Shown here: piece by piece, positions 3,770 to 24,521 of the stretch | How positions within the stretch are numbered: position 1 is the first letter of the stretch | Layout of the letters: each line of letters begins with the position of its first letter | Virus record (IMG/VR): IMGVR_UViG_3300027856_000179 | Coordinates: 1-28,569 of that record | Origin: a virus | DNA length: 28,569 nucleotides | Strand: one strand, 5' to 3' | Program-made: the position numbers and the translations under genes | The notes under the pieces: generated by a model | The model's database searches: none | Told to the model about the DNA's origin: nothing | What the model saw: the letters and a program-made list of their open reading frames with translations, nothing else

Positions 3770-4035
3770 TAGAATTTGTTACATTAGGAATACTTGCAGC
3801 GATTGTTGTAGCTGTGTTAGTTTATCACGCATATTATGTTAGAGAGGTAAACAAAGAGAAATCGAAGCTAATTAATGCTTTAATTTCCAAAAGTGCCGCA
3901 GAACTCCGAGATTTAGAACTTACCGAGAAAGTTAAACCAATTGAACCACCAATAGTTAAAGAACAAGATTTAATCCCAGAAGCAGAGGCTACAGATGAAG
4001 AATTTGCTAAGGTGATGGAAAAGGAGGTTGGTTAA
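3766..4035 (+). CDS. Small single-pass membrane protein (89 aa)
   Basis: The start overlaps the previous stop (ATGA) and the end overlaps the portal start (TAATG). Residues 3-23 (FVTLGILAAIVVAVLVYHAY) form one clear transmembrane helix. A charged, likely helical stretch and an acidic, proline-containing tail follow (LTEKVKPIEPPIVKEQDL). A short N-terminus with basic residues just after the helix (YYVREVNKEK) suggests an N-out, C-in orientation. A holin or spanin role is possible but unsupported: there is one helix and no lipobox, and it lies in the head operon. Confidence 0.7.
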   Translation: MIEFVTLGILAAIVVAVLVYHAYYVREVNKEKSKLINALISKSAAELRDLELTEKVKPIEPPIVKEQDLIPEAEATDEEFAKVMEKEVG

Positions 4036-6185
4036 TGGCTACAGATCTGCCAGGACACTATTCAACAAATAGTTTTGATGCGGATATGATGGGTCAAGCG
4101 GTAGATAATATGATGCGAAGGTCTGCCGATATGAGAAGAGTTTTTGAAAGACGATGGTATGATAACAACTTTTTTGATGACGGATTCCACTTTAGATATT
4201 TAAGTAGGACACAGAATAAGATTGTAGACTTGGCTGATAGATCAACTATATTCGCACCTTTAAGAGCTATACCTAAAGCTTCAAGACAAATACGTGGTAT
4301 TGCTAATTTGTTAATGAGCCAAGATTATATTCCTGTTATTTACCCAGAAAAGGTTAATTTTAACGCATTTCCTCCACTTGAGCAGCAAGATCCCGAATCT
4401 GGTGAATTTGTTACTCAACCTAATCCACAATACAAGGCTGCATTGGATGAAGCGAAGAAAATTGCACGTGGGACTGGTCATTGGGTACAAGAAGAGTACA
4501 AAAAGCAGGAATTAACCGAGAAATTGGCTTTAATGGTGCTTTTAGCGGCTAAACACGGTATTTCTTACCTTCAAGTGTGGCCTGATGCGGTTGAAGAAGA
4601 GATAAAAACCGAAGTTTTTGATGCTTTTGACGTTTATGTGCTTGGAACAGTCAATGAACTGGACGATTCGCCTTATTTGATTAAAACTAAGCCTCGGTTA
4701 ATAGCTGCAATCAAGGCTGATGAGCGATTTAAGCCTGAAAAGACGGCTAAAATCTCTCCAGACAACAAACAAGCCTCTTCAGAGATAAAAGACGCATATA
4801 TGAGAGCTAGGCACGGTGGTGTAGCTCATCCAGACTCTGTAGCTCGTTTAATTGAAAAAGAAGCCTTTGTTAAGGAATATATTGATGATGATTCCTTTGG
4901 AAGAATAAAAATGCAGAAAAACGGTGGGGATATTCTTAGAAATCGTGAAAAAGGTGATCCTGTGATAAGACACACCTTCGTAGCAGGGAATGTTACCCTT
5001 TTAGATGAATATTTGACGATTCCAGGGTACCCATTGGTCGATTTTAGGTTCGAACCAGGTCCACTTTACCAAGTACCTTTGATTGAGAGATTTATCCCTG
5101 CAAACAAGTCTTTAGACCTTATTTCGTCAAGAATTGAGCGATACACCCACACAATGGTCACTGGAAGCTGGTCTAAGCGTCAGGGAGAGCAATTTGACAT
5201 AGATAACACCGCAGGAGGTCAAATAATTGAATATCAGGCTACACCACCAGTTCAGAACCAGGTTGTACCACTCCCAAACTTTCTTTTTAACTTTATGGAC
5301 GTTTTGACAGGGTTTATTGAAGAACAGGGCGTAACAACAACAACTTTAGGTAAAGTACCTCAAGGAGTGAAAGCTGCGGCAGCAATTGAGTCTCTAAAAG
5401 AGAGTGAGTTTGCTAATTTGGTTATTTCTAACCGTCAGCTAAAAGGGACTGTTAGGAGAATATCCCAGAAGTTCCTTGATTTAGCGGATGATTTCTTTAT
5501 GACTCCTCAGACTGTTCAGTTCCTAGATCAAGGAGAACCACAGTATTTTGACGTTATTGGATCTTCAGCTATTGAGAAAAGGGATTCTGTTGGTGTAGAA
5601 ACACCAGGAGATGTGGTTCCAATTAAGAAGGATTATCGAGTAGATATAGAGGTACAGTCTGGTCTTGGTTACACTAAAGAATCCAGGAAGGCTGCTGCTA
5701 AAGAGCTTGGTGACTACATGATCCAACTTGTTCAGATGGGTGTACTAAGTGAAGATGGGTTGAAACCATATATAGATATGATACTTAAAGCGTTTGAATT
5801 TGGGCCTACCCAAGAAATTATGGAATCCTTTGAACAGTTCAAGGGTGAGGGTAGTATGAGCAAGCGACAACTTGATGCGATGAAATTATCTATTATAGAG
5901 GTATTTGAACAACTACAGAAGGAAGGAATACTACCGACAAGCCAACAAAGAATATCGGAAACTAAAGTAGGGGTAGCTGAGACTGTAGAGGCTTTAGGTG
6001 GTGGTGGTGGAGCAGGTGGTCAAGGTCAGCAACAGGAAGAGAAACCACCTTCCAGATCAATTCCTTTTAAAGATTTGCCGCCTGAAGGTAAAGTACAATT
6101 AGCAGCTCAGGCAGGTATAGATATATCAGCAGAGGAGGCTAGACGTGCCGCTAAAGAAGGGCAAAAGCAGGAAAGTAATAAGTAG
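4035..6185 (+). CDS. Portal protein
   Basis: The product is 716 aa, in the size range of large portals of short-tailed phages, and lies directly after terL and its small partners. Typical portal features are the early segment [20 protein letters not shown], the long mixed alpha/beta middle, and the helical region before a low-complexity tail (a glycine run at about residue 655, then a glutamine-rich stretch). The portal forms the dodecameric DNA entry ring at one capsid vertex. Assignment rests on position, size and overall pattern rather than on a single catalytic motif. The last 41 bases overlap a small gene in another frame. Confidence 0.8.
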
Positions 6186-6306
6186 GAACGTATCTGAGCT
6201 TGTTCATTCAGGTAAACCACAGAACCAAGCTGTAGCAATTGCTCTTGACGTAGCTAGAAAAGCTGGAGCAAGGATACCTAGAAAAAGAAAGCGGAGGAAG
6301 AAATAA
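6145..6306 (+). CDS. Small basic phage protein (53 aa), GTG start
   Basis: GTG 6145 lies six bases after a strong SD (AGAGGAGG) inside the portal 3' end. The 53-aa product starts [20 protein letters not shown] and contains [20 protein letters not shown], then ends in the very basic RKRKRRKK. The MPLKKG(K/S)S...VI...N...KPQ.QAVAIAL pattern matches a small protein seen in many phages near structural genes. Its function is unknown to me. Strong SD, family-like sequence and tight spacing (next ATG two bases after its stop) make this a real gene despite its size. Confidence 0.8.
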
Positions 6307-6307
6307 T

Positions 6308-6583
6308 ATGGCTAAAAGTGTTACTTTACTAGAATATACATTTATTTTTAAAGCAGGTGAGAATACCTGGACTAGAGGTATTGAATTTGAAACCGATTTA
6401 TCTAAGTTCTTTGCTACTGTTGGTTTAGAGGCTGAAGTGGTTGAAACATTTGGTGGTAGTGGGCGTAGGGTAATTTTCATATCTTCAATGAATAAATTAG
6501 ATAAAATGGCGAAAGCAAAAACTGTAGAAAAAGGGCCACAAAAGAAATTAAAGGAAATGGCTAAGAAGGGGTTGAAACCTTAA
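6308..6583 (+). CDS. Hypothetical protein (91 aa)
   Basis: ATG follows GCGGAGGAAG at good spacing. The N-terminal part looks like alternating beta strands (SVTLLEYTFIFKAGENTW, then EVVETFGGSGRRVIFISS). The C-terminal 30 residues are lysine-rich and helical (KMAKAKTVEKGPQKKLKEMA). I do not recognise a family. It stands between a small basic protein and the giant repeat protein in the head operon, so a virion or assembly role is plausible. Confidence 0.65.
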   Translation: MAKSVTLLEYTFIFKAGENTWTRGIEFETDLSKFFATVGLEAEVVETFGGSGRRVIFISSMNKLDKMAKAKTVEKGPQKKLKEMAKKGLKP

Positions 6584-6584
6584 T

Positions 6585-8960
6585 ATGGCTGGTCAAGATG
6601 CCAAACAAGATAGAAATAGATTTCCAGCATTGGTTGCTCACACAGGAACTGCGGGAACTGCTGAAACAGTAAAAGTAGTAGCTGATTCAGCAGGTGCCGT
6701 AACTGTTTCTGGAGCTAGTGCTGGTACTGTTGTTGAAATAGAAAAAGGTACGATTGGTACTGTAGGTGAGGTAGGACAAATACACAACGCAGGTACGGTA
6801 GCGGGTTTACCTGATCCAGTAGGTTCTGTAATAGTAACTGCGGGAACAGTTGTAACGACAGTAGGAGATTCCGAAGGCGGTACTCTTGATACAATTGGGA
6901 CTTTAGGTTCTGTTGCTAATATTGGTAAGGTCCACAATGCTGGTACTGTAGCAGCGTTACCTGACCCTGTAGGCTCAGTTGTTGTAACGGTTGGTACTGT
7001 TACCACTACCATAGGTGATCTAACAGGAGGTACAGTTGACTTAATCACCGATCTAAATAGTGGATCTGTGGTAGTTACTAGCGGTACTCTTGGATCAGTA
7101 GGAAATATTGCCAAAGTACATAATGCGGGAACAGTAGCAGCTCTCCCCGATCCCGTAGGAAGTGTAGTTGTGACTGTGGGTACAGTTACAACCACCATAG
7201 GCGACTTAGAGGGTGGCACAATCGATTTAATTACAGACTTAAACAGTGGTTCGGTGGTAGTAACAAGTGGCACCATTGGTTCAGTGGGTAATATCGCTAA
7301 AGTGCATAATGCAGGTTCTGTTGCAGAACTCCCAGATTTGCCAGGAGGTACTGTAGATGCTGTTACTAATGTTGCTAACGTAGCTAAAGGAACACTATTA
7401 ACTTTGGGGACGTTAGGTTCTGTTGCAGCCGTTGGAAAAGTACATGACGCTGGTACTATCGCTGAACTTCCAGACCCGTTAGGTTCTGTGGTTGTAACTG
7501 TAGGAACTGTTACAACAACGATTGGAGACTTAGAAGGCGGGACTATAGATCTAATAACTGATCTTAATAGTGGTTCTGTAGTAGTAACAAGTGGTACGTT
7601 AGGCTCCGTTGGTAACGTGGCTAAGATACACAATGCAGGAACTATCGCGGAGTTGCCCGATCCACTAGGATCAGTGGTAGTTACTGTAGGTACGGTTACT
7701 ACCACTATGGGTGATCTAAGCGGTGGTACCATAGATTTAATTACTAGCATAGCTAACCTTGCTAAAGGAACAGTAACAGCGTTAGCTAAAGGAACTATAT
7801 CCGCAGGAACTATAGGTACTGTAGTTGGTTTAGGCACTGCAACTAATTTAGGGAGTGTCACCAATGTAGGGACGATTAAGGGAATAGATAGTATCGTTTT
7901 ACCAGACCCATTAGGGAGTGTTGTAGTTACGGTAGGAACAGTAACAACAACTATGGGCGACCTTAGTGGAGGCACTATAGATCTGATAACTGATTTAAAC
8001 AGTGGTTCTGTTGAAGTAACTACTATTAGTGATGATCTTCCAGGGGGGACTATAGATGCAGTTACTAACGTAGCCAATGTAGCTAAAGGGACGTTACTTA
8101 CGTTAGGAACATTAGGTTCAGTAGCTGCGGTTGGACAAGTACACAACGCTGGTACGATTGCAGAGCTTCCAGATCCTCTTGGTTCGGTAGTAGTAACAGT
8201 GGGAACAGTGACAACGACAATGGGAGATTTGTCAGGCGGTACTATAGATCTTCTAACTAGTGGTTCCCTTTCTAATATAGCGATGCTCCATGCTGGAACT
8301 ATAGATGACGCTGCAATCTCAGCGTTACCCGACCCTCTCGGTTCTGTAGTTGTTACGGTGGGTACAGTAACCACTACAATGGGGGATACTGAAGGCGGAA
8401 CGCTTGATTTATTAACAGGTGTGGGAACTTTAGGTTCCATTTCAAATATTGCTGTTGTCCATAACGCTGGAACCGTTGCTGCATTACCTGATTTACCAGG
8501 AGGTACAGTTGATCTTGTTTCGGGTCTTCCCGATCCCGTTGGTTCTGTAGTTGTAACAGTTGGGACTGTGACTACGATAGCTGATGATCTACCAGGTGGC
8601 ACAGTTGATTTGGTTACTGGACTAGGGACATTAGGCTCAATATCTGATGTAGCAGTAGTTCACAATGCGGGTACTATCGCAGAAGGACCGTTCTATTCTT
8701 ATAAGTATCAGGCAGCAGCTTCTGCTGATGTAGTTGTTAAAGCTGGAGCAGGGAATCTTCATGCGATTGTCGTTGGAAAAGCGGTTGCGTCATCAGTAAT
8801 TGAAGTTTCAGATGATGCCTCAGATGGAGATGGTGATGTTGTTATTTATCTAGAAGGCGATACTCTAGGTCCCGCCCTTTACCCTGTTAATATGGCCTTT
8901 GGAACAGGTATTACCTCTGATATAACAAACCAATCGAATGTAACCTTTATTTATAGTTAA
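6585..8960 (+). CDS. Giant Gly/Thr/Val repeat virion protein (791 aa)
   Basis: Residues 1 to about 60 are a unique N-terminus. Most of residues 62-700 is built from recurring modules: nine copies of DP(V/L)GSVVVTVGTVTT or a close variant, about nine of (K/Q)VHNAGT(V/I)A, and repeated LPGGT(V/I)D and GTLGSV. About ninety residues at the C-terminus (from FYSYKYQAAASADVVVKAG) form a different beta-rich domain resembling phage head or tail decoration domains. The composition predicts a regular beta structure, such as a fibre or beta-helix. Likely a capsid or tail fibre or decoration; its place in the head operon favours the head. The repeats differ strongly at the DNA level although the protein is conserved. 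Confidence 0.75.
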   Translation: MAGQDAKQDRNRFPALVAHTGTAGTAETVKVVADSAGAVTVSGASAGTVVEIEKGTIGTVGEVGQIHNAGTVAGLPDPVGSVIVTAGTVVTTVGDSEGGTLDTIGTLGSVANIGKVHNAGTVAALPDPVGSVVVTVGTVTTTIGDLTGGTVDLITDLNSGSVVVTSGTLGSVGNIAKVHNAGTVAALPDPVGSVVVTVGTVTTTIGDLEGGTIDLITDLNSGSVVVTSGTIGSVGNIAKVHNAGSVAELPDLPGGTVDAVTNVANVAKGTLLTLGTLGSVAAVGKVHDAGTIAELPDPLGSVVVTVGTVTTTIGDLEGGTIDLITDLNSGSVVVTSGTLGSVGNVAKIHNAGTIAELPDPLGSVVVTVGTVTTTMGDLSGGTIDLITSIANLAKGTVTALAKGTISAGTIGTVVGLGTATNLGSVTNVGTIKGIDSIVLPDPLGSVVVTVGTVTTTMGDLSGGTIDLITDLNSGSVEVTTISDDLPGGTIDAVTNVANVAKGTLLTLGTLGSVAAVGQVHNAGTIAELPDPLGSVVVTVGTVTTTMGDLSGGTIDLLTSGSLSNIAMLHAGTIDDAAISALPDPLGSVVVTVGTVTTTMGDTEGGTLDLLTGVGTLGSISNIAVVHNAGTVAALPDLPGGTVDLVSGLPDPVGSVVVTVGTVTTIADDLPGGTVDLVTGLGTLGSISDVAVVHNAGTIAEGPFYSYKYQAAASADVVVKAGAGNLHAIVVGKAVASSVIEVSDDASDGDGDVVIYLEGDTLGPALYPVNMAFGTGITSDITNQSNVTFIYS
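6780..8690 (+). repeat. Protein-level tandem modules with diverged DNA
   Basis: The array inside the 791-aa gene repeats at irregular intervals of roughly 45-75 codons. The hexapeptide GTVTTT occurs seven times (6993, 7179, 7503, 7689, 7935, 8202, 8361), and all seven 18-base coding stretches differ. It is therefore a protein repeat rather than a conventional DNA repeat. Confidence 0.8.
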
Positions 8961-12122: not shown

Positions 12123-13385
12123 ATGGCAAACTTAATACTTAGTGGTTTTTCGTCAGCTTTGAAAGAGATATTGCTTCCTTATATAAGGGACAACTTTCCA
12201 AAGAAAACGATTCTTCTTGACCAAATGAAAAGAAATGCTGGAACTGATCTAATTAACGATGAGTTCGTTGCACCTCTTTACACTTCCCGACACGGTGGTG
12301 TGGCCAACCTAGCGGATGATAACAATAACATTATCCAATCTGGTGGTCGAAATACCTCTCGCGGAACTGTTGGTGTCAAGATTGTATCTGGAGCTTTGGA
12401 CATCTCTAAATTAGCTATTGACGCTTCCAAAAACACTCTAGCCGTAGAAAATGCTCTAACAGCTCAAGCTAAGACTTTAGCGGGTGACTTTGCTCGCCAA
12501 GTCAATCGTCAGCTTTACAGCGATGGCGTAGGTGTTGTATCGATGGTTCGAGCTACAGGTGGATCAGTTGGAACTGGAACTATTGCTGTTGAAGCAATTA
12601 GTGCCAGTATCGATGATGGTCGACACACCGATAGTTACGGTACTGTAAACGCAGACATCAGTCCAGTTAAATATCTTGCAGTAGATCAAATTATAGGTGT
12701 AGGTACAGCAGGTGCAGCAGATGGAACTATTACTTCGACTACAGGAACATCAGTTGTTTCTGGAGCACCGACAGCAATTGTTACCGCAGCTAACGACTCT
12801 ATCTATATCCAAGATGGTTCGGGAGAAGGTGCAGGTACTTCTGAAATTCAAGGTATCCGAGCAGCTTTGTCCTCATCCACAGGAACAAGCACTTATGCAG
12901 GTGTTGCAAGAAACGTGACTGGTTGGACACCAAACTTTGGTTCTGTGTCGGAAGCCTTGACGATGTCAAGACTAGAAGACTCATATCTAAGTGCTAAGGA
13001 AACTGCGGAACTTGACGACAAATATATTATCTTGGTCAACAAGACTCTCTATAAAAAATATGGAGACATCTTGACTTCGATGAGAAGAACAGTCAACTCA
13101 GCAGATTTACTTGGTGGCTGGACAGGACTTGAATTTGCCGCAGGTGCAGGAAATGTCGGGGTATTCCTTGACTACGATGTACCAGACGGTGACGCTTTAG
13201 TCATAGATATGGATACTTGGACAATTACACAAGTTTCTGATGTTGACTGGCTAGAAGACCCCAACGGTGGCGGTCTATTGAGAAAACAAAATTCGATACT
13301 ATTCCAAGCTGTAATGGTTTGGTTTACAAACGCTTTTTGTTTGGCTCCAGCAGCTAATGGGCGTGAGACTCAAAAGACAGACTAG
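12123..13385 (+). CDS. Major capsid protein (HK97-fold type)
   Basis: The product is 420 aa, with a strong SD (AGAGGAGGTGA). The N-terminal pattern ILLDQMKRNAGTDLINDEFV, then TSRHGGVANLADD, the strand GTVGVKIVSGALDISKLAID and the long helix AKTLAGDFARQVNRQLYSDG match a common family of short-tailed phage capsid proteins. Residues of about 140-260 are rich in Gly, Ser, Thr and Ala and look like an insertion or surface domain. The C-terminus (VSDVDWLEDPNGGGLLRKQN and after) fits the P-domain end. Its position after a scaffold-like gene supports the call. Confidence 0.9.
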   Translation: MANLILSGFSSALKEILLPYIRDNFPKKTILLDQMKRNAGTDLINDEFVAPLYTSRHGGVANLADDNNNIIQSGGRNTSRGTVGVKIVSGALDISKLAIDASKNTLAVENALTAQAKTLAGDFARQVNRQLYSDGVGVVSMVRATGGSVGTGTIAVEAISASIDDGRHTDSYGTVNADISPVKYLAVDQIIGVGTAGAADGTITSTTGTSVVSGAPTAIVTAANDSIYIQDGSGEGAGTSEIQGIRAALSSSTGTSTYAGVARNVTGWTPNFGSVSEALTMSRLEDSYLSAKETAELDDKYIILVNKTLYKKYGDILTSMRRTVNSADLLGGWTGLEFAAGAGNVGVFLDYDVPDGDALVIDMDTWTITQVSDVDWLEDPNGGGLLRKQNSILFQAVMVWFTNAFCLAPAANGRETQKTD

Positions 13386-14743: not shown

Positions 14744-15403
14744 ATGTCAGAACCGCTCCAAGGCATCTTTTGGACAGGTGATGTTGACAATCATTACATA
14801 GGCCATCAATTCGAGGAAATATTCAAATCACGTATCTACGCCCCTTATTTAGAATCCACAAAAGACGCTATTGTCTTTGATGTGGGGGCTAACGTAGGGG
14901 TGTTCTCATTGTACGCCTCTAAATACGCCAAGCACGTTTATGCTTTTGAACCAGCCCTAGAACACTTTGATACTCTTAATAGAATGGTCGCCTTCAACCA
15001 CTTAGATAATGTAACTCCCATTAAGAAGGCTATTTATATAAATGACGGTGTTTTACCTTTCTACCATAATAAGAATCGTACAATGTACTCACTCCACATG
15101 GGGGTTGAAGATGGATCTCAACCAAAAGAGCACGTGGAGACAGTAAGACTAGATACTTTTATGAAGGAGCAGAAGATAGATCACGTTAATATGTTGAAAC
15201 TAGATATAGAAGGTAGTGAGTTTGAGATACTAGGAAGTGAGAGTTTCCGTAAGGTTGCTCCAAAGATTGATGTAGTTATTGGCGAAACGCACCAGTGGGC
15301 TAATAGACATCCTCATCAGATAGTGGAGGCTTTAAAAAACAACGGGTTTAAGTTTGAACCCATACAAGGGGATGCCCAACTATTTGTAGGTAAACGTATA
15401 TGA
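14744..15403 (+). CDS. FkbM-family methyltransferase 1
   Basis: The product is 219 aa. SAM motif I is FDVGANVGVFS at residues 45-55, the acidic motif II region is YAFEPALEHF, and the family's late motif MLKLDIEGSEFEIL is at 150-163. FkbM enzymes O-methylate diverse substrates, commonly sugars or polyketides. It is first in the operon, behind the pseudoknot leader. The next gene is its paralogue and overlaps it by ATGA. With the sugar enzymes downstream, a glycan hydroxyl is the likely target, although no substrate is visible in sequence. Confidence 0.9.
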   Translation: MSEPLQGIFWTGDVDNHYIGHQFEEIFKSRIYAPYLESTKDAIVFDVGANVGVFSLYASKYAKHVYAFEPALEHFDTLNRMVAFNHLDNVTPIKKAIYINDGVLPFYHNKNRTMYSLHMGVEDGSQPKEHVETVRLDTFMKEQKIDHVNMLKLDIEGSEFEILGSESFRKVAPKIDVVIGETHQWANRHPHQIVEALKNNGFKFEPIQGDAQLFVGKRI

Positions 15404-16143
15404 TGAAAGGCACTGTTCAAACTAAAACTTTAAATAACAATAAGGTAACAGCGTTCTGGTTTCCTATCGCAGAAAAAGAGTTTCAACTACAAATTAATGA
15501 GATCTTTGGTGAGGAGCTATATAAGTTAGGAAAAAGAAAAAAGGGAGGGGTTTATTTAGACATAGGTGCCTGTCTTGGTTTAGCGTCAATATACTTTAGG
15601 GATTGGGCTAAGATGATTTATGCAGTGGAGCCATCCACTGAATGTTACAAGGCTCTATTTAACAACACTAAAGAAATTACAAACATACAAACCTTTAACT
15701 GTGCTATGGCTGATAAAAATGCCCGTTTAAAACTCTGTAGTATCAATTCTAAGAGCGTTCCACAGACTTTTTACCCAGGTAATAAAAGCGTTGTTGGTAG
15801 CGAAATAGTACCCTGTAAAACTATGGATGTATTCTTTAAGGAAAACAAGATAAACCACATTGATGTTATGAAACTTGATGTGGAAGGTAGCGAATATTCC
15901 TTACTAGCGAGCCCTGGTTTTGCTAAGGTAGCCGATAAGATAGACTTTATTATTGGTGAGTCACACTTTACTAATGATGGTGCGGCTCCTTTATTTATCC
16001 CTGAAATATTAAAAGAGTATGGGTTTAAAACTAAGTTCTTGAAAGAAAAGAACTTCATTAGGCATTTAGGTATGACCTTTGGAAAAGTAGACAAAATCTA
16101 TTCCGTTAATGTTAGAACAATGTTTTATGCAGAAAGGAAATAA
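15400..16143 (+). CDS. FkbM-family methyltransferase 2
   Basis: The product is 247 aa. Motif I is LDIGACLGLAS (residues 53-63), the acidic region is YAVEPSTECY, and the FkbM signature is MKLDVEGSEYSLL (157-169). It shares layout with the preceding gene, so the pair probably arose by old duplication or parallel gain. Either ATG 15400 (overlapping the previous stop) or the adjacent ATG 15403 could start translation. Its stop overlaps the next gene. A different position on the same glycan is a reasonable inference for the second copy. Confidence 0.88.
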   Translation: MMKGTVQTKTLNNNKVTAFWFPIAEKEFQLQINEIFGEELYKLGKRKKGGVYLDIGACLGLASIYFRDWAKMIYAVEPSTECYKALFNNTKEITNIQTFNCAMADKNARLKLCSINSKSVPQTFYPGNKSVVGSEIVPCKTMDVFFKENKINHIDVMKLDVEGSEYSLLASPGFAKVADKIDFIIGESHFTNDGAAPLFIPEILKEYGFKTKFLKEKNFIRHLGMTFGKVDKIYSVNVRTMFYAERK

Positions 16144-16637
16144 TGCGTGACTTTTTTAAAACATTACCCCAGACAGATAAGTTAACAGGGGTTGAGGTTG
16201 GGGTGTACCGAGGCGACAACGCTTTATTGATACTAAAAGGGCTACCCTATTTGGAGAAACTTTATCTAGTAGATCCTTATACTGATTACAGAGATGCAGA
16301 AAGTTACGTAGCAATGAGTGAGATGGAGTTTAGTGAGAAAGAAGCTAAAGAGAAATTGAAGGCTTTTGAACAAAAGATCACTTGGATTAAGAAACCTTCT
16401 GTGGAAGCCTCCGCAGATTTTGATAACAGTAGTTTAGACTTTGTGTATATAGACGGAAACCACCAAACTGATTACGTTAAAGAGGATATAAAAGCTTGGA
16501 TGGATAAACTAAAAGACGATGGTGGGATGGGTGGTCACGATTACACTTATAAGTTTGTTAAACAGGCTGTAGATGACATGGCAGAATTTTATGACTATGG
16601 TCTAGCCCACAAGAAAGGCGATTGGTGGTTTGTATGA
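16143..16637 (+). CDS. Class I SAM methyltransferase (Methyltransf_24 type)
   Basis: The product is 164 aa. VEVGVYRGDNA (17-27) is motif I, YLVDPYTDYRD carries the SAM ribose-binding acid, and LDFVYIDGNHQTDYVKEDI followed by GGMGGHDY is the Methyltransf_24 pattern. Enzymes of this type occur in glycan and antibiotic pathways. The protein is compact, with no extra domain. It overlaps the upstream FkbM gene at its ATG, and GroES starts on its own stop codon. It is the third methyltransferase in a row, implying multi-site modification. Confidence 0.85.
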   Translation: MRDFFKTLPQTDKLTGVEVGVYRGDNALLILKGLPYLEKLYLVDPYTDYRDAESYVAMSEMEFSEKEAKEKLKAFEQKITWIKKPSVEASADFDNSSLDFVYIDGNHQTDYVKEDIKAWMDKLKDDGGMGGHDYTYKFVKQAVDDMAEFYDYGLAHKKGDWWFV

Positions 16638-16936
16638 GTAAACTAATCCCGTTGCCAGGATACATATTAATAGAACCAATAGAAGAAGAGGATACTACAG
16701 TGTCAGGGTTGGTGTTACCAGAGTCAGCTAAAGAGAAGCCAGCTAAGGGTAAGGTGCTGGCTGTCGAAGCAGAAATAGGAAATGAAGATGATAAATATAG
16801 GGATGCACAGGTAAAAGAAGGGCAAGTAGTAGTGTTCAAAAAGTGGGGAGGGCAAGACGTAGAGGATCAAGGTAAGGAATTAAAGCTTGTAAAATTCGAT
16901 GAAGTAATGGGGGTATATGAAGAAAAAAAAGAGTAG
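16634..16936 (+). CDS. groES: Phage-encoded co-chaperonin GroES
   Basis: The product is 100 aa, matching the family length. PLPGYILIEPIEEEDT, then the mobile loop ending in SGLVLPESAKEKPAKGKVLA, correspond to GroES (the LVL triplet matches the GroEL-binding IVL). GDDK-like GNEDDKYRDAQVKEGQVVVF and the C-terminal DEVMGVYE complete the beta-barrel. I start at ATG 16634, which overlaps the methyltransferase stop (ATGA), rather than at the in-frame TTG upstream. It should cap the neighbouring GroEL. Carriage next to groEL suggests a complete phage chaperonin. Confidence 0.93.
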   Translation: MSKLIPLPGYILIEPIEEEDTTVSGLVLPESAKEKPAKGKVLAVEAEIGNEDDKYRDAQVKEGQVVVFKKWGGQDVEDQGKELKLVKFDEVMGVYEEKKE

Positions 16937-17057
16937 GCTAGAAAAAGGTATAGCATGGTTAATTGAGTTTACCTGTGAACATAGGATTATTCTTTCGGAT
17001 AAAGAAGTTAGAGAATTCATTTCCTTATTAGGTAAAAATTATGACGAAGTTTCTTAA
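16917..17057 (+). CDS. Small basic protein between groES and groEL (46 aa)
   Basis: ATG 16917 follows a G-rich stretch (ATGGGGGTAT). The 46-aa product starts MKKKKSRLEKGIAWLIEF and contains CEHRIILSDKEVREFISLLG. It overlaps the groES end by 20 bases and the groEL start by 17, each in a different frame, and so fills a gap that would otherwise have no role. It has a basic N-terminus and amphipathic helices. No family is recognised. The SD is weak, so translation may depend on coupling to groES. Confidence 0.45.
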   Translation: MKKKKSRLEKGIAWLIEFTCEHRIILSDKEVREFISLLGKNYDEVS

Positions 17058-18633
17058 AGACATAAAGTTTGACACTCAAGCTAGAGAAAGTCTACTTAAA
17101 GGTATGAACGTAGTTGCTGATGCTGTAGGTTCTACGCTAGGTCCAAGAGGACGTAACGTGGCTGTAGACCAGTATCAGGAAGTAGATGTACCACCTACTG
17201 TACTGCATGATGGCGTATCAGTAGCCCGTTCCATTAACTTACCAGATAACTTCGAGGATATGGGAGCTAGGCTTCTAAAAGATGCAGCTCTCCAGACTAA
17301 TGAGAAGGCAGGGGATGGTACTACCACCGCTACTATACTAGCCCAGGCTATTGTTAAAGAAGCTGTTAAGAACATAGAAGCTGGTAGTAATCCTATGGTG
17401 TTGAAGGCTGAGATAGAAGAAGCTACCAAGTGTGTGTTAGCAGAACTAAAACGATTGAGTAAGAAGATAGCTTCTGATACCGAGATAGAACAAGTTGCTA
17501 CAATCTCTGCTGCTGATCCAAACATAGGTAATCTTGTTTCTCAAGCACTACGGAAGGTAGGTAAAGATGGTGTGATTACAGTTGAAGAAGGTAAGACTAT
17601 GGAGACTGAAGTAGAGTATAAACAGGGGATGGAGATTAACCAAGGTTACTTATCTCCTTACTTTGTAAGCGAACACGAAAAGGAAGCAGCAATTATAGAC
17701 GATCCATATATTTTACTAACAGACAAAAAACTAAACTACGGGTATGTGCTACAGCCTTTCTTAGAGAACTTCCTAAAGACTGGTCATAAAAACTTAGTGG
17801 TATTTGCAGGGGACTTAATTGAGGAAGGTATGCAAATGCTAGTTGTTAATAAGTTGCGTGGCGTTCTCAACGTGGTAGCCGTTCAAGCACCCGCCTTCGG
17901 AGATCGAAGGATTGACGAACTTGAAGACTTGGCCACCCTTGTAGGAGGCCACGCTATCTTAGAAGACTCTGGAACAGAATTAAAGTCTGTAAATATTACA
18001 GAGCTTGGTAAAGCTGACAAAGTAGTTGTTACTAAGGAATCTACAGTTATTCTTAATGGTCATGGGAATAAGAAACATATAACTAGAAGAGTTGATGAAC
18101 TGCGTGAACAAATAAAAATATCTACCAATGACTATGATAGACAAGTCAAAGAAGAACGTCTTGCTAAGTTAGCGGGAAGTGTTGCTATCATCCATGTGGG
18201 TGCCGCAACAGAAGTTGAGCTAAAAGAAAAGAAAGAAAGAGTCATTGATGCCGTTGCTGCGACCAAAGCAGCAGTTGAGGAAGGGATTATAGCAGGTGGG
18301 GAGGTAACGCTGCTCTACATGGCTCTCAGAGGCTTGGAAGGTGCATTTGAGGCTACGGGTGGTAAGATACTTAGGGAAGCTTTGAAGGCACCGTTTAAGC
18401 AGCTAACCAGTAATGCGGGGTTTGACTACGCTGAAGTCTTACAGAAACTGTCTGGTAAAGAATATCCTATGGGAATAGACGTATTGGATGGGGAAATTAA
18501 AGATATGATTAAGTCTGGGATTATAGATCCTGTTAAAGTCACTAGGAGTGCTTTAGAGAACGCTGTTTCTGTGGCAGTGATGGCTTGTACTACTAATACA
18601 TTAATAGTTGATTTACCGAAAGAAAAGGAATGA
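17041..18633 (+). CDS. groEL: Phage-encoded chaperonin GroEL
   Basis: The product is 530 aa against about 548 in E. coli. The ATP site is intact: D57 in LHDGVSVAR, D92 in AGDGTTTAT, and the catalytic-aspartate equivalent D403 in IDAVAATKAAVEEG. The apical substrate and GroES face keeps GYLSPYF (202-208). Oddities: the usual AGGGVAL is AGGEVTL here (E421), and the Gly-Gly-Met tail is absent, the protein ending DLPKEKE. With GroES it would form a folding chamber for phage proteins in the host cytoplasm. The stop overlaps the next gene's start. Confidence 0.95.
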   Translation: MTKFLKDIKFDTQARESLLKGMNVVADAVGSTLGPRGRNVAVDQYQEVDVPPTVLHDGVSVARSINLPDNFEDMGARLLKDAALQTNEKAGDGTTTATILAQAIVKEAVKNIEAGSNPMVLKAEIEEATKCVLAELKRLSKKIASDTEIEQVATISAADPNIGNLVSQALRKVGKDGVITVEEGKTMETEVEYKQGMEINQGYLSPYFVSEHEKEAAIIDDPYILLTDKKLNYGYVLQPFLENFLKTGHKNLVVFAGDLIEEGMQMLVVNKLRGVLNVVAVQAPAFGDRRIDELEDLATLVGGHAILEDSGTELKSVNITELGKADKVVVTKESTVILNGHGNKKHITRRVDELREQIKISTNDYDRQVKEERLAKLAGSVAIIHVGAATEVELKEKKERVIDAVAATKAAVEEGIIAGGEVTLLYMALRGLEGAFEATGGKILREALKAPFKQLTSNAGFDYAEVLQKLSGKEYPMGIDVLDGEIKDMIKSGIIDPVKVTRSALENAVSVAVMACTTNTLIVDLPKEKE

Positions 18634-19364
18634 AGCGAGCTTTCTATACAATAGCTGATAAGAACGTCCAGAAAGAACTGACAATGATGAAGAACTCATT
18701 GGGTAAGTTCCATCCGAATGAAGAACTTGTTGTGTTTGCGGACCAAGATATTCAAGCAACTAGAGATCCCCAGTTCTTTTACCGATCCACTCCTTACGTT
18801 GCTGACTTTCTGTTTAATAAAGGATATGATCAGCTCTGTAAGTTAGATGCAGACCAGATTATTGCAGGGGATCTGTCAGATATATGGGAAGGTGACTACG
18901 ATGTAGCGGTAGTTAATAATTCTAACCCCAGAGAATACAAAGCATATCCTTATACTATCTGGAACTTACATCCTCTTTCGTATATTAACAACGGGTTAGT
19001 TGTGTTAAAGAACAAAAGCTTTGCTGCTCATTGGAAGAAGCTGTGTTACTCGTCCCACTTCGACTCTTATCAGATGAAGGAACAGGATTTACTTAACATC
19101 ATGTGTTTTTACGGAGACTACAAAGTTAAGTTTCTTGATTCAGGTGATAGTTTTTACGGACTTGCAAGTAAAGGCTACTGGCCCGAAATTATACTAAAAA
19201 ACAAAAAGGAACTGGTGTTACCAGCTAACCAAGAATGGAATAAGGTTGATAAGACAATCAAAGTTATACATTGGGCTGGTGGTCATAACTCGCCAGATAA
19301 GATGAACTACAAGATTAGATTTAAACCAGAGGTAATTGAAAGGCTAGATGAGTTGGTCAAATGA
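18630..19364 (+). CDS. GT8-like glycosyltransferase (GT-A fold)
   Basis: The product is 244 aa. The start overlaps the groEL stop (ATGA). KLDADQIIAGDLSDIW contains the DxD metal and nucleotide-sugar motif (residues 73-75) in the characteristic GT8 setting (LD.D.....DL..LW). The later YINNGLVVLKN and VIHWAGGHNSPD agree with the family's conserved NSG-like and C-terminal His-Gly elements. It probably adds a hexose or a derivative from a nucleotide sugar to an unknown acceptor. The operon context (methyltransferases, epimerase, second transferase) implies glycan building. Its end overlaps the HNH gene. Confidence 0.85.
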   Translation: MKRAFYTIADKNVQKELTMMKNSLGKFHPNEELVVFADQDIQATRDPQFFYRSTPYVADFLFNKGYDQLCKLDADQIIAGDLSDIWEGDYDVAVVNNSNPREYKAYPYTIWNLHPLSYINNGLVVLKNKSFAAHWKKLCYSSHFDSYQMKEQDLLNIMCFYGDYKVKFLDSGDSFYGLASKGYWPEIILKNKKELVLPANQEWNKVDKTIKVIHWAGGHNSPDKMNYKIRFKPEVIERLDELVK

Positions 19365-19747
19365 GGGTTTTACCAAGAGATAAAAAAGGAAGATTTATTA
19401 AAGGTTACCGATACTCTGTAGGAACTGAGTTTAAGTATAAAAACGGTAGTGGTTATAGGCATGTGGTGATTGCAGAACATGCTGTGTGTGATTGGTGTAA
19501 CACAAGTGGTTATTTAGAAGTTGACCATATAGACAATAATCATTGTAACAATAATCTAAATAATCTCAGGGTTTTATGTCATCCTTGTCATACAAACAAA
19601 CATAGAAAAACTACTTGGGACAAAAGAGGAAATGATAGTTGTTTAAAATGTGGAAGGAACGATAGGGAACCAGAAGCGAGAGGGTTATGTCACAACTGTT
19701 ATCAGTATTTATGGCGTAGAAAGGAGTTACCTTGCGTGTACTCGTGA
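19361..19747 (+). CDS. HNH endonuclease with C-terminal zinc-binding domain
   Basis: The product is 128 aa. The HNH nuclease core is CDWCNTSGYLEVDHID, then LNNLRVLCHPCHTNKHR, with zinc cysteines at 43, 46, 73 and 76 and the catalytic DH at 55-56. A second four-cysteine element (CLKCG at 94-98 and CHNC at 110-113) may bind zinc and DNA. The gene sits between the two sugar genes with a 4-base overlap upstream and a 16-base overlap downstream. Free-standing HNH genes in phages are often homing endonucleases, and its seamless nesting suggests an old insertion adapted to the operon. A packaging role is less likely, since it is far from terL. Confidence 0.88.
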   Translation: MRVLPRDKKGRFIKGYRYSVGTEFKYKNGSGYRHVVIAEHAVCDWCNTSGYLEVDHIDNNHCNNNLNNLRVLCHPCHTNKHRKTTWDKRGNDSCLKCGRNDREPEARGLCHNCYQYLWRRKELPCVYS

Positions 19748-20625
19748 CTGGAGGAACAGGATTTCTAGGAACTAACTTTTATCAGTATCTAAGGCGTAAA
19801 GAGCCTAATATTGATGTTACTTTGTTTTCAAGAAGAACTGGAGGAAATGTAAGGAACTACGAGCAGGTGAAGCAAGCTGTGTCTGTTAGTGATTTAGTAG
19901 TTCACATGGCAGCTCAAACTCACGTAGATTTTTCCCTGCACGATGATCTAGAAGACCAAAGTAACTTCATTAGCACCAATGTTAATGGCACTTTAAATGT
20001 AATACACGCTTGCAGAAGATACTATGTGAAGATGATTCATATAAGTACTTCTGAAGTTTATGGAACTAACCAAAGACCAGGTAGTTTTATGAACGAGGAT
20101 CATCCAATACAAGCTCAGGCTGGTATTTATGCCACTACTAAGGCTTGTGCAGACCTAACTTGTAGGATGACAACAATGACTACTGGTGCTGATATAGTTA
20201 TCTTGAGGCCATTTAACTTCTGGGGACCGTATCAGAGCGTGGAGAAACTAATACCTAGATTTATTAGTCAAGCTTTAGCTGGTAAACCTTTAACTATTTA
20301 TGGGGATGGGAAGCAAAAGAGGGATTATGTTTACATAGAAGATGTAGCTAAAGCTGTATGGTTAGCTAAGGATCTTCCTAGCGGTACTATATGTAACATA
20401 GCTACCAGTAAGAACTATACTGTCAATGAGATAGCTAATATGATAAGTACAGATAAAGTGTACGTAGAAGCAAGACCAGGAGAAGTAACGGAGTTGCTTG
20501 GTGGTTTTGTTAAGTTCCATCTTTTAACTGGATGGGAACCAAAAACTGAATTAAATAAAACTAGCATGAAAAAGCTGTTTGACTGGTATGCAGTTAATAA
20601 GTTTATACAACAACCAAAATTATGA
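19732..20625 (+). CDS. NAD-dependent nucleotide-sugar epimerase/dehydratase (extended SDR)
   Basis: The product is 297 aa. The Rossmann motif is TGGTGFLG at residues 6-13. The catalytic set is the serine/threonine of STSEVYG (105-111) and Y133xxxK137 in YATTKACAD. LRPFNFWGPYQ and YGDGKQKRDYVYIEDVAKA are typical of UDP- or dTDP-sugar 4-epimerases and dehydratases. It likely makes a sugar donor for the flanking transferases. The start is TTG at 19732, supported by AAAGGAG at ideal spacing and by the fit MRVLVTGG. Exact sugar specificity cannot be read here. Confidence 0.88.
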   Translation: MRVLVTGGTGFLGTNFYQYLRRKEPNIDVTLFSRRTGGNVRNYEQVKQAVSVSDLVVHMAAQTHVDFSLHDDLEDQSNFISTNVNGTLNVIHACRRYYVKMIHISTSEVYGTNQRPGSFMNEDHPIQAQAGIYATTKACADLTCRMTTMTTGADIVILRPFNFWGPYQSVEKLIPRFISQALAGKPLTIYGDGKQKRDYVYIEDVAKAVWLAKDLPSGTICNIATSKNYTVNEIANMISTDKVYVEARPGEVTELLGGFVKFHLLTGWEPKTELNKTSMKKLFDWYAVNKFIQQPKL

Positions 20626-21617
20626 ACAAACGTAGAGACTTAAAAATACTTTTAAATTCTAATGCTCCTTGGTCAATGAGTGGTTATGGAGTAGCTACTA
20701 GGGATTTACTGCGAAGATGGCACAAGGATGGTTGGCCTGTTGCTTGTAGTGCTTTCTTTGGTTTACAAGGAAACCCGCTTGAGTGGGAAGGTATTAAATG
20801 CTTTCCAAAGATAGGTGACGATTGGGGAGGAGATGCGATGGTAGAGCATGGTAGAACATGGGGTGCTAATGTTGTAATGAGTTTCCAAGATATATGGGTG
20901 CTTAACCCTCATTTTCTTAAACAAATTAAGGTTTGGATTCCTTATGTTCCTATAGATAAAGATCCTGCCCCCGAAGGTGTAATTGATAAGCTAAGATACG
21001 CGTATAAAATTATTACCTTTTCTAAGTTTGGACAACGGGAATTAGAAAAGAAGGGTTTTGCTTCTACCATGATACATGAAGGTACTGACGTAAATATATT
21101 TAAAGCTGAAGATAAAGTTAAAGCCAGAAAAGATATGACCCTTCCTCAAGATGCGTTTGTATTTGGAATGATAGCTGCTAACAAAGAGAATCCCCCACGT
21201 AAAGGGTTCCAAGAGGCTATTGAAGCGTTTAAGATGTTCTCCGACAAGCACCCAGAGGCAGTTATCTTTTTCCATATTCAACAAACCAGCCCGCAGGGTT
21301 TTCCTATTAAGCACTTCCTCAAACACCTGGGAATTGAAAAGAAAGCTTACTTTGTAGAAGGTTATCAAGCAACTCATAATTCTGGATCTGAGGTTATGCG
21401 TACAGAGTATAGTGCATTTGATGTGACACTTCACCCTTCACAAACAGAAGGATTTGGGTTATGTATAGTAGAGTCTCAAGCTTGCGGTACTCCTACCCTA
21501 GTTCAAAGGTGTCAGAGTATGCCTGAGCTTGTAATAGACGGAGTGACTGGTGGTATAGCTGAAACTGCTACAGTAGGTACGCAACTGACGGTTCTTACGT
21601 TCATGTTGCTGACGTGA
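20622..21617 (+). CDS. GT4-like glycosyltransferase, frameshifted near its C-terminus
   Basis: The start overlaps the epimerase stop. The GT-B N-domain starts NAPWSMSGYGVATRDLLRRW. The donor-binding domain has HPSQTEGFGLCIVESQACGT, the EGFG....E motif of GT4, followed by MPELVIDGVTGGIAETAT. After about residue 320 the frame ends in an unrelated TVLTFMLLT. The natural C-terminus continues in another frame (21563-21793). The intact protein would be about 390 aa. The cause may be a real 1-base deletion, an assembly error or recoding. It probably extends the same glycan as the GT8-like enzyme. Confidence 0.8.
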   Translation: MNKRRDLKILLNSNAPWSMSGYGVATRDLLRRWHKDGWPVACSAFFGLQGNPLEWEGIKCFPKIGDDWGGDAMVEHGRTWGANVVMSFQDIWVLNPHFLKQIKVWIPYVPIDKDPAPEGVIDKLRYAYKIITFSKFGQRELEKKGFASTMIHEGTDVNIFKAEDKVKARKDMTLPQDAFVFGMIAANKENPPRKGFQEAIEAFKMFSDKHPEAVIFFHIQQTSPQGFPIKHFLKHLGIEKKAYFVEGYQATHNSGSEVMRTEYSAFDVTLHPSQTEGFGLCIVESQACGTPTLVQRCQSMPELVIDGVTGGIAETATVGTQLTVLTFMLLT

Positions 21618-21872: not shown

Positions 21873-22214
21873 ATGTCAGATAAACAACATAATATGGTAA
21901 CGAGAAGAGGTACTATTACCGTAGTGGGTGCTGATGATGCTACTTTAGCAGGAACTTCTACCCAAGTAATAAATGGGTTAGGCAGGTGGATTGACTTTAC
22001 AACAGCCAATATGGAAGGTTCTGACTCTACTGATATATCAATCGTTGATGAATTTGGTGGCACTGTATATGCCTCTGGAACCAAGGCTGAAAGTACAACA
22101 TTTTCTCTTGGTAGTGTATTTCCTTTATATGGGACGGTTACTATAGTGGCAACGGCAGAAGGTACACAGTCAGCAAGTAGAACGATTCCTTTTGGAATAA
22201 TATATGAAGAATAA
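21873..22214 (+). CDS. Small structural protein, beta-sandwich type (113 aa)
   Basis: A strong SD (TTTGGAGGTGATATAA). The product reads MSDKQHNMVTRRGTITVV, then LGRWIDFTTANMEGSDSTDI and FGGTVYASGTKAES, with a beta-strand rhythm typical of small phage virion proteins that pair with adaptors. I do not recognise a named family. The stop overlaps the next ATG (TAATG), so it is coupled to the tail-fibre-like gene. A decoration or head-tail joining role is inferred from position at the head of the tail unit. Confidence 0.6.
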   Translation: MSDKQHNMVTRRGTITVVGADDATLAGTSTQVINGLGRWIDFTTANMEGSDSTDISIVDEFGGTVYASGTKAESTTFSLGSVFPLYGTVTIVATAEGTQSASRTIPFGIIYEE

Positions 22215-23110
22215 TGGCTACAACATACCCTGCTACAAAACAGACCTTCAGTGATCCTGCTGGAACTAATACTCAGGATTCACCAGATCACGCAGGTTTG
22301 CATACAAATATAAATGATACAGTTGAGGAACTGCAAGATACTGTTGGTACTACTGGTGGTACTAATGTATTAAAATCCTTTGTAGCGGGAGATATTCCCG
22401 TCAGATCTGATACATCTAATGTGCTTCAAACAAATGTATCTGGAACTATGGATGTGTTAGCAGGTACTTTTGATAATGGTGTTTTTGGTACTCCAGCAAT
22501 TACATCAGGTACGGTGGATAACGTAGTGGTAGGAACACCAGCTATAGTAGGAGGTACTTACGATGATGCTGTACTTGGAACTCCTGCTATAACTGGAGGA
22601 ACTATAGATAATGCAGTTATAGGTACGTCAGCCATAACAGGTGGTACGATTATTTTGGATAACAATGTTGCTTATCAAGCTAGAGATTCTGGTGATGGTA
22701 ATGATGTTGATTTAATTAATCTTAATGGTAGCGATCAGACAGTAATAGGCAGTGCTGGTGTTAGAGCTACAAGGTATGTACCATTAACTAATTATGTAGA
22801 AGTTACTCCTGGTACACTAAGCACCAGTTTTGCTGATATAGACTGCACTTCAGCTACTTCAGCTAATACTTTTGCTATTAACTTTCTTCTGGTATACAAC
22901 TCAGGAACGGCTGGTATGGATTTGGAAGTAAGACCAAATGGTGGTACTTCCTCAGGTCATCTGAGGGCAAGAATACAAATTGTCAATTTACCTATTATGG
23001 GCGGTGGGATATGTGGTTGTGATAGTAGTCAAATTATTGAGTATTTGGTAGATGACGCTACTGGTACTGCTAATCTTAGAGTAATAGGTTATCACGAATA
23101 TGTTGATTAA
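22214..23110 (+). CDS. Tail fibre-like protein with short repeats (298 aa)
   Basis: The N-terminus (YPATKQTFSDPAGTNTQDSP, then DHAGLHTNINDTVEELQDTV) matches the common N-terminal domain that anchors phage fibres to the virion. Residues of about 85-155 carry repeats of the form GTPAITxGTxDNAVIG, about four copies. The last 110 residues (YVPLTNYVEVTPGTLSTSFA onward) form a separate beta-rich domain, possibly receptor-binding or trimerising. The fibre would contact the host or another virion protein. The repeats vary in codons although the protein repeats. Confidence 0.75.
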   Translation: MATTYPATKQTFSDPAGTNTQDSPDHAGLHTNINDTVEELQDTVGTTGGTNVLKSFVAGDIPVRSDTSNVLQTNVSGTMDVLAGTFDNGVFGTPAITSGTVDNVVVGTPAIVGGTYDDAVLGTPAITGGTIDNAVIGTSAITGGTIILDNNVAYQARDSGDGNDVDLINLNGSDQTVIGSAGVRATRYVPLTNYVEVTPGTLSTSFADIDCTSATSANTFAINFLLVYNSGTAGMDLEVRPNGGTSSGHLRARIQIVNLPIMGGGICGCDSSQIIEYLVDDATGTANLRVIGYHEYVD

Positions 23111-23112
23111 AT

Positions 23113-23382
23113 ATGAATGTTGAAGATATAAAACCAACAAACAAAATAGATAAGTCAAAAGCAGTAGCTCAATCTACAACTACTACTTACAGTGACTCTG
23201 ATACTACATATAGCAGCACCACGCAAACTTATGGTGGTTCGGATAGGGCACAGGATTTGGGACCAGTTATGCTTGATGTAGATGAGAATATATCTAAAAA
23301 CCGTTTAGTAGCGAGTATTATACCTAAAGGTAGAACAGTTGAAGATATTAAACCGATTAATTTGGAGGTGATAGATTTATGA
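23113..23382 (+). CDS. Small Ser/Thr-rich protein (89 aa)
   Basis: The product begins MNVEDIKPTNKIDKSKAVAQ, has a low-complexity Ser/Thr/Tyr stretch (TTTTYSDSDTTYSSTTQTYG), then a compact C-terminus that again contains VEDIKPIN, so the VEDIKP motif occurs at both ends. It overlaps the adaptor-like gene (ATGA) at 23379. The start has no strong SD, and coupling to the previous gene, two bases upstream, is likely. No family is recognised. A linker or peripheral virion protein is plausible. Confidence 0.6.
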   Translation: MNVEDIKPTNKIDKSKAVAQSTTTTYSDSDTTYSSTTQTYGGSDRAQDLGPVMLDVDENISKNRLVASIIPKGRTVEDIKPINLEVIDL

Positions 23383-24521
23383 TTGTAAAAACTAATAATC
23401 CGAGAACAGATAATGTTCCAAAGACATTTCTTACTCATACTGAAGCAGCAGCCGCAACAGATTTACGGTGGAAGAATGAAAGTGGTTTCCAAAAAGATTG
23501 GGCTATACAGCTAGGAGAAACAGGTGAAGAACAGACAGAAGTTAGGGTGCTTTCTTCAGATGCGGTTGCTGGTACAGCAGGAACTGTTACTGCGGGTATT
23601 TCGTATGAGCATCCTGCTGATACTCCAATATATGCCATCAAATATGATACGATTATATTTGAGAGAGCTACAGCAGGAACTACTGGTACAGCGACACCAT
23701 TGACTGGTGGTACTGTAACTATTCAGGCAGACCAGAAGTTTACTCAGTTTGATGATACTAGCGGTGCAGCTACTTATGGATACAGAAGTAGGTTTGAAAA
23801 TAGCTCAGGTAATATAGGTTCTAGTAGCCAAAGTGCTTGGATTACTTCTGCTGGTCTTACATTCTATACATTGGGTAAGATTAGGGATCGGGTAAAGGAT
23901 AAACTGTGGGATGCTAGTTTCATTAAAGATGAAACACAGATAGATGACTGGATCAACGAGTGGAAAGACCAGATGATTAATGAAGTTGTTTCTGTAAACG
24001 AAGATTATTCTTTGGGTACAACAGAAGTTGGGTTTGGTACAGATGGTTTAGGAACGGTTACAACAACAGACTTCTCACAAGTTAGAAGAGTGTGGGTAAC
24101 GTACAATGGTACAGATAGATACCGAAGCACTAAGCAGAATATAAATGACTTTCTACCAGATGAAACATTCTCAAGTACACATCCTTATCACTCATGGAGA
24201 GGGGATAGTATTCTGGATATTAAACCAGCCGATAATGGTGGTACAATAGAGTTAGTTTACTATCAGTTTGGTACTACTATGGTTAATGACACAGATGTAC
24301 TTCCTCTGCCAATGAGGAGTTACACAGATTCCTTTGTGAACTACGGACTAGCACAGGCTCTCTTTAAGGATGGTAAGACAGCAGAATATGATAGAAAGAT
24401 TGTAGAAGCTACTACATCTAAAAGAGATTTTGTTAGGAAGTTAGCTCCAAGAGATAAGTCTGGTGTTACTTACATTGATATAGTAGAACACACAAGTGGT
24501 GAAGGTGGTAGATTACCGTGA
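23379..24521 (+). CDS. Head-tail adaptor-like protein with N-terminal beta domain
   Basis: The product is 380 aa. The N-terminal 165 residues (DNVPKTFLTHTEAAAATDLR, SGFQKDWAIQLGETGEEQTE) look like a beta-sandwich. From about residue 168 (TLGKIRDRVKDKLWDASFIK, then DDWINEWKDQMINEVVSVNE) it resembles the helical adaptor of short-tailed phages, with the D-x-I-x-x-W-I-N pattern and the later LPLPMRSYTDSFVNYGLAQA. The adaptor ring joins portal to nozzle. Fusion to an N-terminal beta domain is unusual. It overlaps both neighbours by 4 bases. Confidence 0.7.
   Translation: MIVKTNNPRTDNVPKTFLTHTEAAAATDLRWKNESGFQKDWAIQLGETGEEQTEVRVLSSDAVAGTAGTVTAGISYEHPADTPIYAIKYDTIIFERATAGTTGTATPLTGGTVTIQADQKFTQFDDTSGAATYGYRSRFENSSGNIGSSSQSAWITSAGLTFYTLGKIRDRVKDKLWDASFIKDETQIDDWINEWKDQMINEVVSVNEDYSLGTTEVGFGTDGLGTVTTTDFSQVRRVWVTYNGTDRYRSTKQNINDFLPDETFSSTHPYHSWRGDSILDIKPADNGGTIELVYYQFGTTMVNDTDVLPLPMRSYTDSFVNYGLAQALFKDGKTAEYDRKIVEATTSKRDFVRKLAPRDKSGVTYIDIVEHTSGEGGRLP

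Follow-up and report, generated by a model that had tools for sequence, protein, structure and literature searches.

Scrambled codons behind nearly fixed protein repeats in a putative fibre gene family of uncultured phages

How can a gene keep repeating nearly the same peptides while the DNA that encodes them is written differently each time? This question is raised by a gene at 6585..8960 (plus strand, 791 residues), which sits between the portal and capsid genes on a 28.6-kb contig from an uncultured virus; the whole stretch of 28,569 nucleotides that was analysed is referred to below as the window. The protein, henceforth the GT-repeat protein, carries nine copies of a larger unit, LPDP[VL]GSVxVTxGTVxTT.., and the hexapeptide GTVTTT lies inside this unit. 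A sequence-only reading of the window had noted the varied spelling of GTVTTT and proposed strong selection on the protein, combined either with selection against DNA identity or with very old duplications under tight constraint. The features needed to follow the argument are these:

4035..6185, plus strand, portal protein (PHROG 156 portal, E 7e-10), the upstream neighbour and a conserved marker
6585..8960, plus strand, GT-repeat gene, consisting of an N-terminal segment, a repeat stalk, and a C-terminal jelly-roll-like domain
6585..6722, plus strand, N-terminal segment, MAGQDAKQDRNRFPALVAHTGTAGTAETV..., common to relatives with other stalks and tips
6723..8678, plus strand, repeat stalk of short segments, each with a G[TS][VIL] start, spaced mostly 3-14 residues apart
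6807..6887, plus strand, unit 1, LPDPVGSVIVTAGTVVTTVGDSEGGTL, the most divergent, without GTVTTT
6957..7037, plus strand, unit 2, GTVTTT at 6993
7143..7223, plus strand, unit 3, GTVTTT at 7179
7467..7547, plus strand, unit 4, GTVTTT at 7503
7653..7733, plus strand, unit 5, GTVTTT at 7689
7899..7979, plus strand, unit 6, GTVTTT at 7935
8166..8246, plus strand, unit 7, GTVTTT at 8202
8325..8405, plus strand, unit 8, GTVTTT at 8361
8526..8606, plus strand, unit 9, GTVTTIADDLPGGTV, degenerate
8676..8957, plus strand, C-terminal domain, all-beta and jelly-roll-like
12123..13385, plus strand, major capsid protein (MCP; PHROG 14242, E 5e-17), used as marker and yardstick
23379..24521, SU10_adaptor-family protein (PF24175, E 8e-11)

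The N-terminal segment is 31-62% identical to its counterparts in the related contigs L002, L004/5, and L006, bears the motif D.N.FP.L.A..GTAGTA that the window gene shares with most GT-repeat genes, and is probably the attachment region of the protein. AlphaFold returned no confident fold for the stalk monomer (pLDDT 39), and modelled the C-terminal domain from 8 sequences as an all-beta, jelly-roll-like structure (pLDDT 73). Foldseek matched this domain in BFVD (E 3e-5) to phage proteins of ~90-100 residues that have no assigned function, and weak structural matches in the PDB were to nucleoplasmin cores and the HFTV1 turret. The same domain occurs as a separate short ORF of ~100 residues near 5970..6280 in L244, L246, and L247, and L041 holds two GT-repeat genes (4989..7799 and 15614..16597) with a jelly-roll-like end of the same kind as the window's. 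The whole protein gave no PHROG match at E<=0.01, a sub-threshold match in Pfam, and no useful sequence match in the PDB, so that these three collections link it to no known fibre family by sequence. Composition, gene neighbourhood, and exchangeable ends are the basis for a fibre role; on these grounds the GT-repeat protein is most plausibly a virion fibre whose end can be exchanged. An open frame of 654 residues runs antisense over the gene (6638..8602, minus strand) and is longer than in synonymous shuffles of the window gene (P about 0.002). We rejected it as probably due to chance, since P<0.05 was reached in only two of 40 family genes, the window's included.

The window also encodes a terminase and resembles the SU10-like (Kuravirus) short-tailed phages (PMC9509320) in its SU10-type adaptor, portal, and MCP, a likeness drawn from searches for the adaptor, portal, terminase, and MCP families only. 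The phage collection searched contains no cultured member of the window's phage group, and none of its 50,697 records holds an MCP or portal relative with good coverage; a search for the host in 84,980 prokaryote genomes found no MCP or portal relative at all. By eye, we found small GroES-like and 530-residue GroEL-like ORFs within the phage structural region (16622..18633). ORFs resembling FkbM-type methyltransferases, glycosyltransferases, and sugar epimerases were likewise seen at 14744..16637 and 18630..21617, which suggests roles in surface glycans or in glycosylation of the virion. At 22214..23110 lies a second repeat protein, likely another fibre component, whose words are of the GTPAI[TV]GGT type.

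As the sequence-only reading had it, GTVTTT occurs exactly seven times, in seven different 18-mers at the positions listed above. The seven spellings were nonetheless rejected as evidence, because all-distinct copies are expected under the gene's codon usage (P = 0.97). Across aligned codons for the same residue, codon identity in the window gene was 0.311, compared with 0.357 expected from a within-gene codon shuffle (898 pairs, z -2.75); z was -2.1 when the shuffle was limited to repeat positions and -3.0 when it preserved the codon-junction dinucleotide. The mean difference at fourfold sites of the seven GTVTTT units was 0.74, versus 0.66 for random codon choice, and NG86 dS was beyond estimation for 14 of the 21 unit pairs. 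Two stretches sharing 37 identical residues are alike at 2 of 22 fourfold sites, a 113-residue repeat at 87% identity is alike at 31% of them, and the longest exact DNA repeat in the gene measures 16 bp, while its protein repeats extend over 78-113 residues at 87-94% identity. What is unexpected after duplication is this total loss of shared codons, which leaves no trace of a common DNA ancestry. Strong constraint on the protein is clear, as had been proposed, and comes with full synonymous saturation between copies.

Searches with the MCP and portal protein yielded about 100 related uncultured contigs, in which 52 GT-repeat genes remained after duplicate removal. These genes share a common N-terminal segment, range from about 180 to 1313 residues with a variable order of words, and end in several kinds of C-terminal domains. 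The window gene fits the family as an ORF with abundant G[TS][VIL] words, in most cases located between portal and MCP (homologues in related phage contigs lie between portal and scaffold/MCP), and it shows the family's synonymous saturation between protein repeats. Thirty-five genes were testable, having at least 30 aligned codon pairs; pooled, their codon identity was 0.330 versus 0.346 after shuffling (8,008 codon pairs), and 34 of them were saturated. Clear recent duplication was found in L047 only, where the GT-repeat gene (14948..18259, downstream of the capsid gene) contains a 61-bp exact repeat (z 4.5); the L040 gene contains one of 44 bp. As a yardstick, MCP and portal orthologues at 93-95% amino-acid identity have codon identities of 0.61-0.68, with a baseline of about 0.40 for distant pairs, whereas GT repeats, whose protein identity is similar to or above that of these orthologues, have 0.31-0.33.

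Copies within a gene differ in this respect from copies in separate phages. Identical words in unrelated phages had a codon identity of 0.3324, precisely the expected value (0.3324, n=35,992), whereas copies within one gene had 0.3248 versus 0.3495 expected (z -4.5 with L047 left out; -3.5 to -4.5 over six alignment settings, likewise without L047). Shuffling codons over the whole gene makes the deficit look too large, because codon usage is more even in repeat regions; non-aligned pairs dip too. The strictest nulls, which shuffle at repeat positions only, gave z -2.2 (plain) and -3.5 (junction-preserving), and -2.9 under the strict null with L047 kept; under the strict null there was no depletion in non-aligned same-residue pairs from the same regions. 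The within-gene deficit was strongest for copies less than 120 residues apart and absent beyond 480, runs of at least three identical codons numbered 140 where 190 were expected (z -3.9), and the deviation was negative in 27 of the 35 genes (P 0.002). Without the three strongest genes (the window's, L019, and L024), the pooled z was -1.95 with L047 and -2.6 without it. Short exact k-mers (8-10), counted over the pooled genes, were more frequent than in shuffles, not less, an excess that probably comes from codon-context preferences. By these tests, the deficit in codon identity exists in cis only. Measured against random codon choice, copies within a gene are therefore slightly more different, which upholds the direction of the proposed selection against DNA identity but limits its size, since identity falls about 3-7% short of expectation.

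Other repeat proteins from the same database served as controls. Codon identity was significantly raised in 53 of 100 of them (49 of 93 collagen-like ORFs and 4 of 7 TAKL-type repeat ORFs) versus one of the 35 GT-repeat genes, a comparison in which the collagen-like repeat period is much shorter than that of GT repeats and the TAKL set is small. Clustering of units by recent duplication, which the sequence-only reading had named as the contrary outcome, is thus largely a feature of the controls. Exact repeats in control genes reached 147 bp, and 38-43% of these genes held repeats of at least 30 bp. L053 encodes an AVTTAKL-type repeat protein (20014..21246) whose relatives often hold long DNA repeats, up to 147 bp exact. 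Given the raised codon identity in controls, the GT pattern cannot be put down to assembly or to some general trait of phage repeats.

We consider it rather probable that the stalk is built of old, constrained words whose DNA-similar copies have been lost, probably via deletion by recombination or slippage. The gene would encode a modular fibre-like virion protein in which a conserved N-terminal segment is followed by a long stalk and a jelly-roll-like end that can be exchanged. The stalk would draw on a small stock of beta words starting with GT, which purifying selection on the protein would keep nearly fixed. Copies that resemble each other in DNA would not last, the most likely reason being that recombination or slippage during replication deletes the stretch between them. 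The survivors would be old or imported, with codons that have drifted to full randomness, and among close copies selection or purging may have shifted codon choice slightly past random. Protein repeats, saturation, few recent duplicates compared with other repeat proteins, and a cis-only codon deficit are all observed. The last two lend support to selection against, or purging of, DNA-identical copies. Since the excess over random is small, age and purifying selection on partly shared words cover most of the scrambling, and active avoidance is supported but small. The exact repeats of L040 and L047 show that DNA-similar copies can occur, and they count against this explanation. A stronger claim, that codons are scrambled naturally by cis selection for DNA dissimilarity, which protects the fibre gene against shortening through recombination or slippage, is a real possibility that we lean slightly against.

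New words might instead be imported by recombination with other phages' GT-repeat genes and be scrambled already on arrival, which we hold to be somewhat unlikely. The vocabulary is partly shared, since 57% of repeated 20-residue windows also occur in GT-repeat genes of other phages at >=85% identity; end domains are exchanged among GT-repeat genes, and codon likeness within a gene is no higher than between phages (0.332 versus 0.340 in a segment comparison). The window's own repeats, however, are mostly private, with only 18% occurring in other phages of the set, and comparisons of otherwise unrelated phages brought up no donor segment of clearly recent DNA identity. Import alone also does not predict codon identity below random. 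It is compatible with, and complementary to, the loss of DNA-similar copies that we favour.

Age by itself, that is, ancient duplications under tight protein constraint that have reached synonymous equilibrium without selection on DNA identity, appears unlikely as the full account. It would explain full saturation and the random value of words shared between phages, and the very old duplications proposed at the outset do cover most of the pattern. It also agrees with the pace of codon change: orthologous stalk segments of L012 and L013 keep 0.54-0.61 of their codons, compared with 0.61 for portal and 0.68 for MCP, so that codon change is not abnormally fast. Hypermutation was rejected on the same retention of 54-61%. 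Equilibrium, however, predicts random identity, not the below-random identity seen in cis only. Moreover, stalks change fast between relatives: about half to all of the stalk was lineage-specific in 14 of 14 pairwise views (orthologous codon identity 0.53-0.64), yet in nine of these comparisons the lineage-specific stalk had no copy in its own gene at orthologous codon identity, the threshold for such copies being permissive, so that positive counts in the other comparisons include noise. Control repeat proteins, by contrast, do retain recent duplicates. Over shorter times the arrays are stable, since in four strain sets from different samples the GT-repeat genes were identical over the compared stretch with repeat number unchanged.

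An assembly artefact, in which short-read assembly loses or collapses DNA-identical repeats and leaves the scrambled ones visible, is very unlikely. Every contig is metagenomic and very long exact repeats can break assemblies, but the same collection yielded the long exact repeats of the controls, and DNA repeats of intermediate identity, which assemble well, are absent too. Least likely of all is convergence of independent sequences on the same peptides under strict beta-stalk geometry, for although GT[VIL] recurs everywhere and stalk words are short, 37 consecutive identical residues and repeats of 78-113 residues exceed motif convergence by far, and vocabularies differ among family members.

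We found no description of natural codon scrambling in phage genes in the open-access literature. If the preferred reading holds, a phage gene family would have evolved what engineers design, a repetitive protein without DNA repeats. Other repeat proteins could then be screened for its measurable natural signature, a below-random codon identity that is restricted to aligned copies of the same gene and decays with distance, and it would become testable what DNA repeats cost a fast-replicating viral genome.

Among known systems, phage fibre stalks and collagen-like or TAKL-type proteins share with the GT family a long low-complexity stalk, separate ends, and a structural gene neighbourhood, but more than half of the collagen-like and TAKL-type controls hold recent DNA-level copies, and the GT family almost never does. 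The nearest known repeat case is polyubiquitin, with head-to-tail, protein-identical repeats, many synonymous differences, and the same evolutionary debate, namely concerted evolution versus purifying selection with birth and death (Sharp & Li 1987; Nei et al. 2000, both as recounted in PMC10457151). In polyubiquitin, likeness is generally greater among the repeats of one locus than across species (PMC10457151). In contrast, GT copies within a gene are slightly below random and no more alike than those in unrelated phages (0.332 versus 0.340 for segments, 0.325 versus 0.332 for words), opposite to what concerted evolution entails. The nearest analogue of the proposed mechanism is engineered codon diversification, which is reported to keep the repeats of a viral vector from recombining (PMC12365220). 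There, too, the same protein repeats are written in different synonymous codons, but by design and near-maximally, whereas GT-repeat genes are natural and lie for the most part at random equilibrium, apart from a slight excess.
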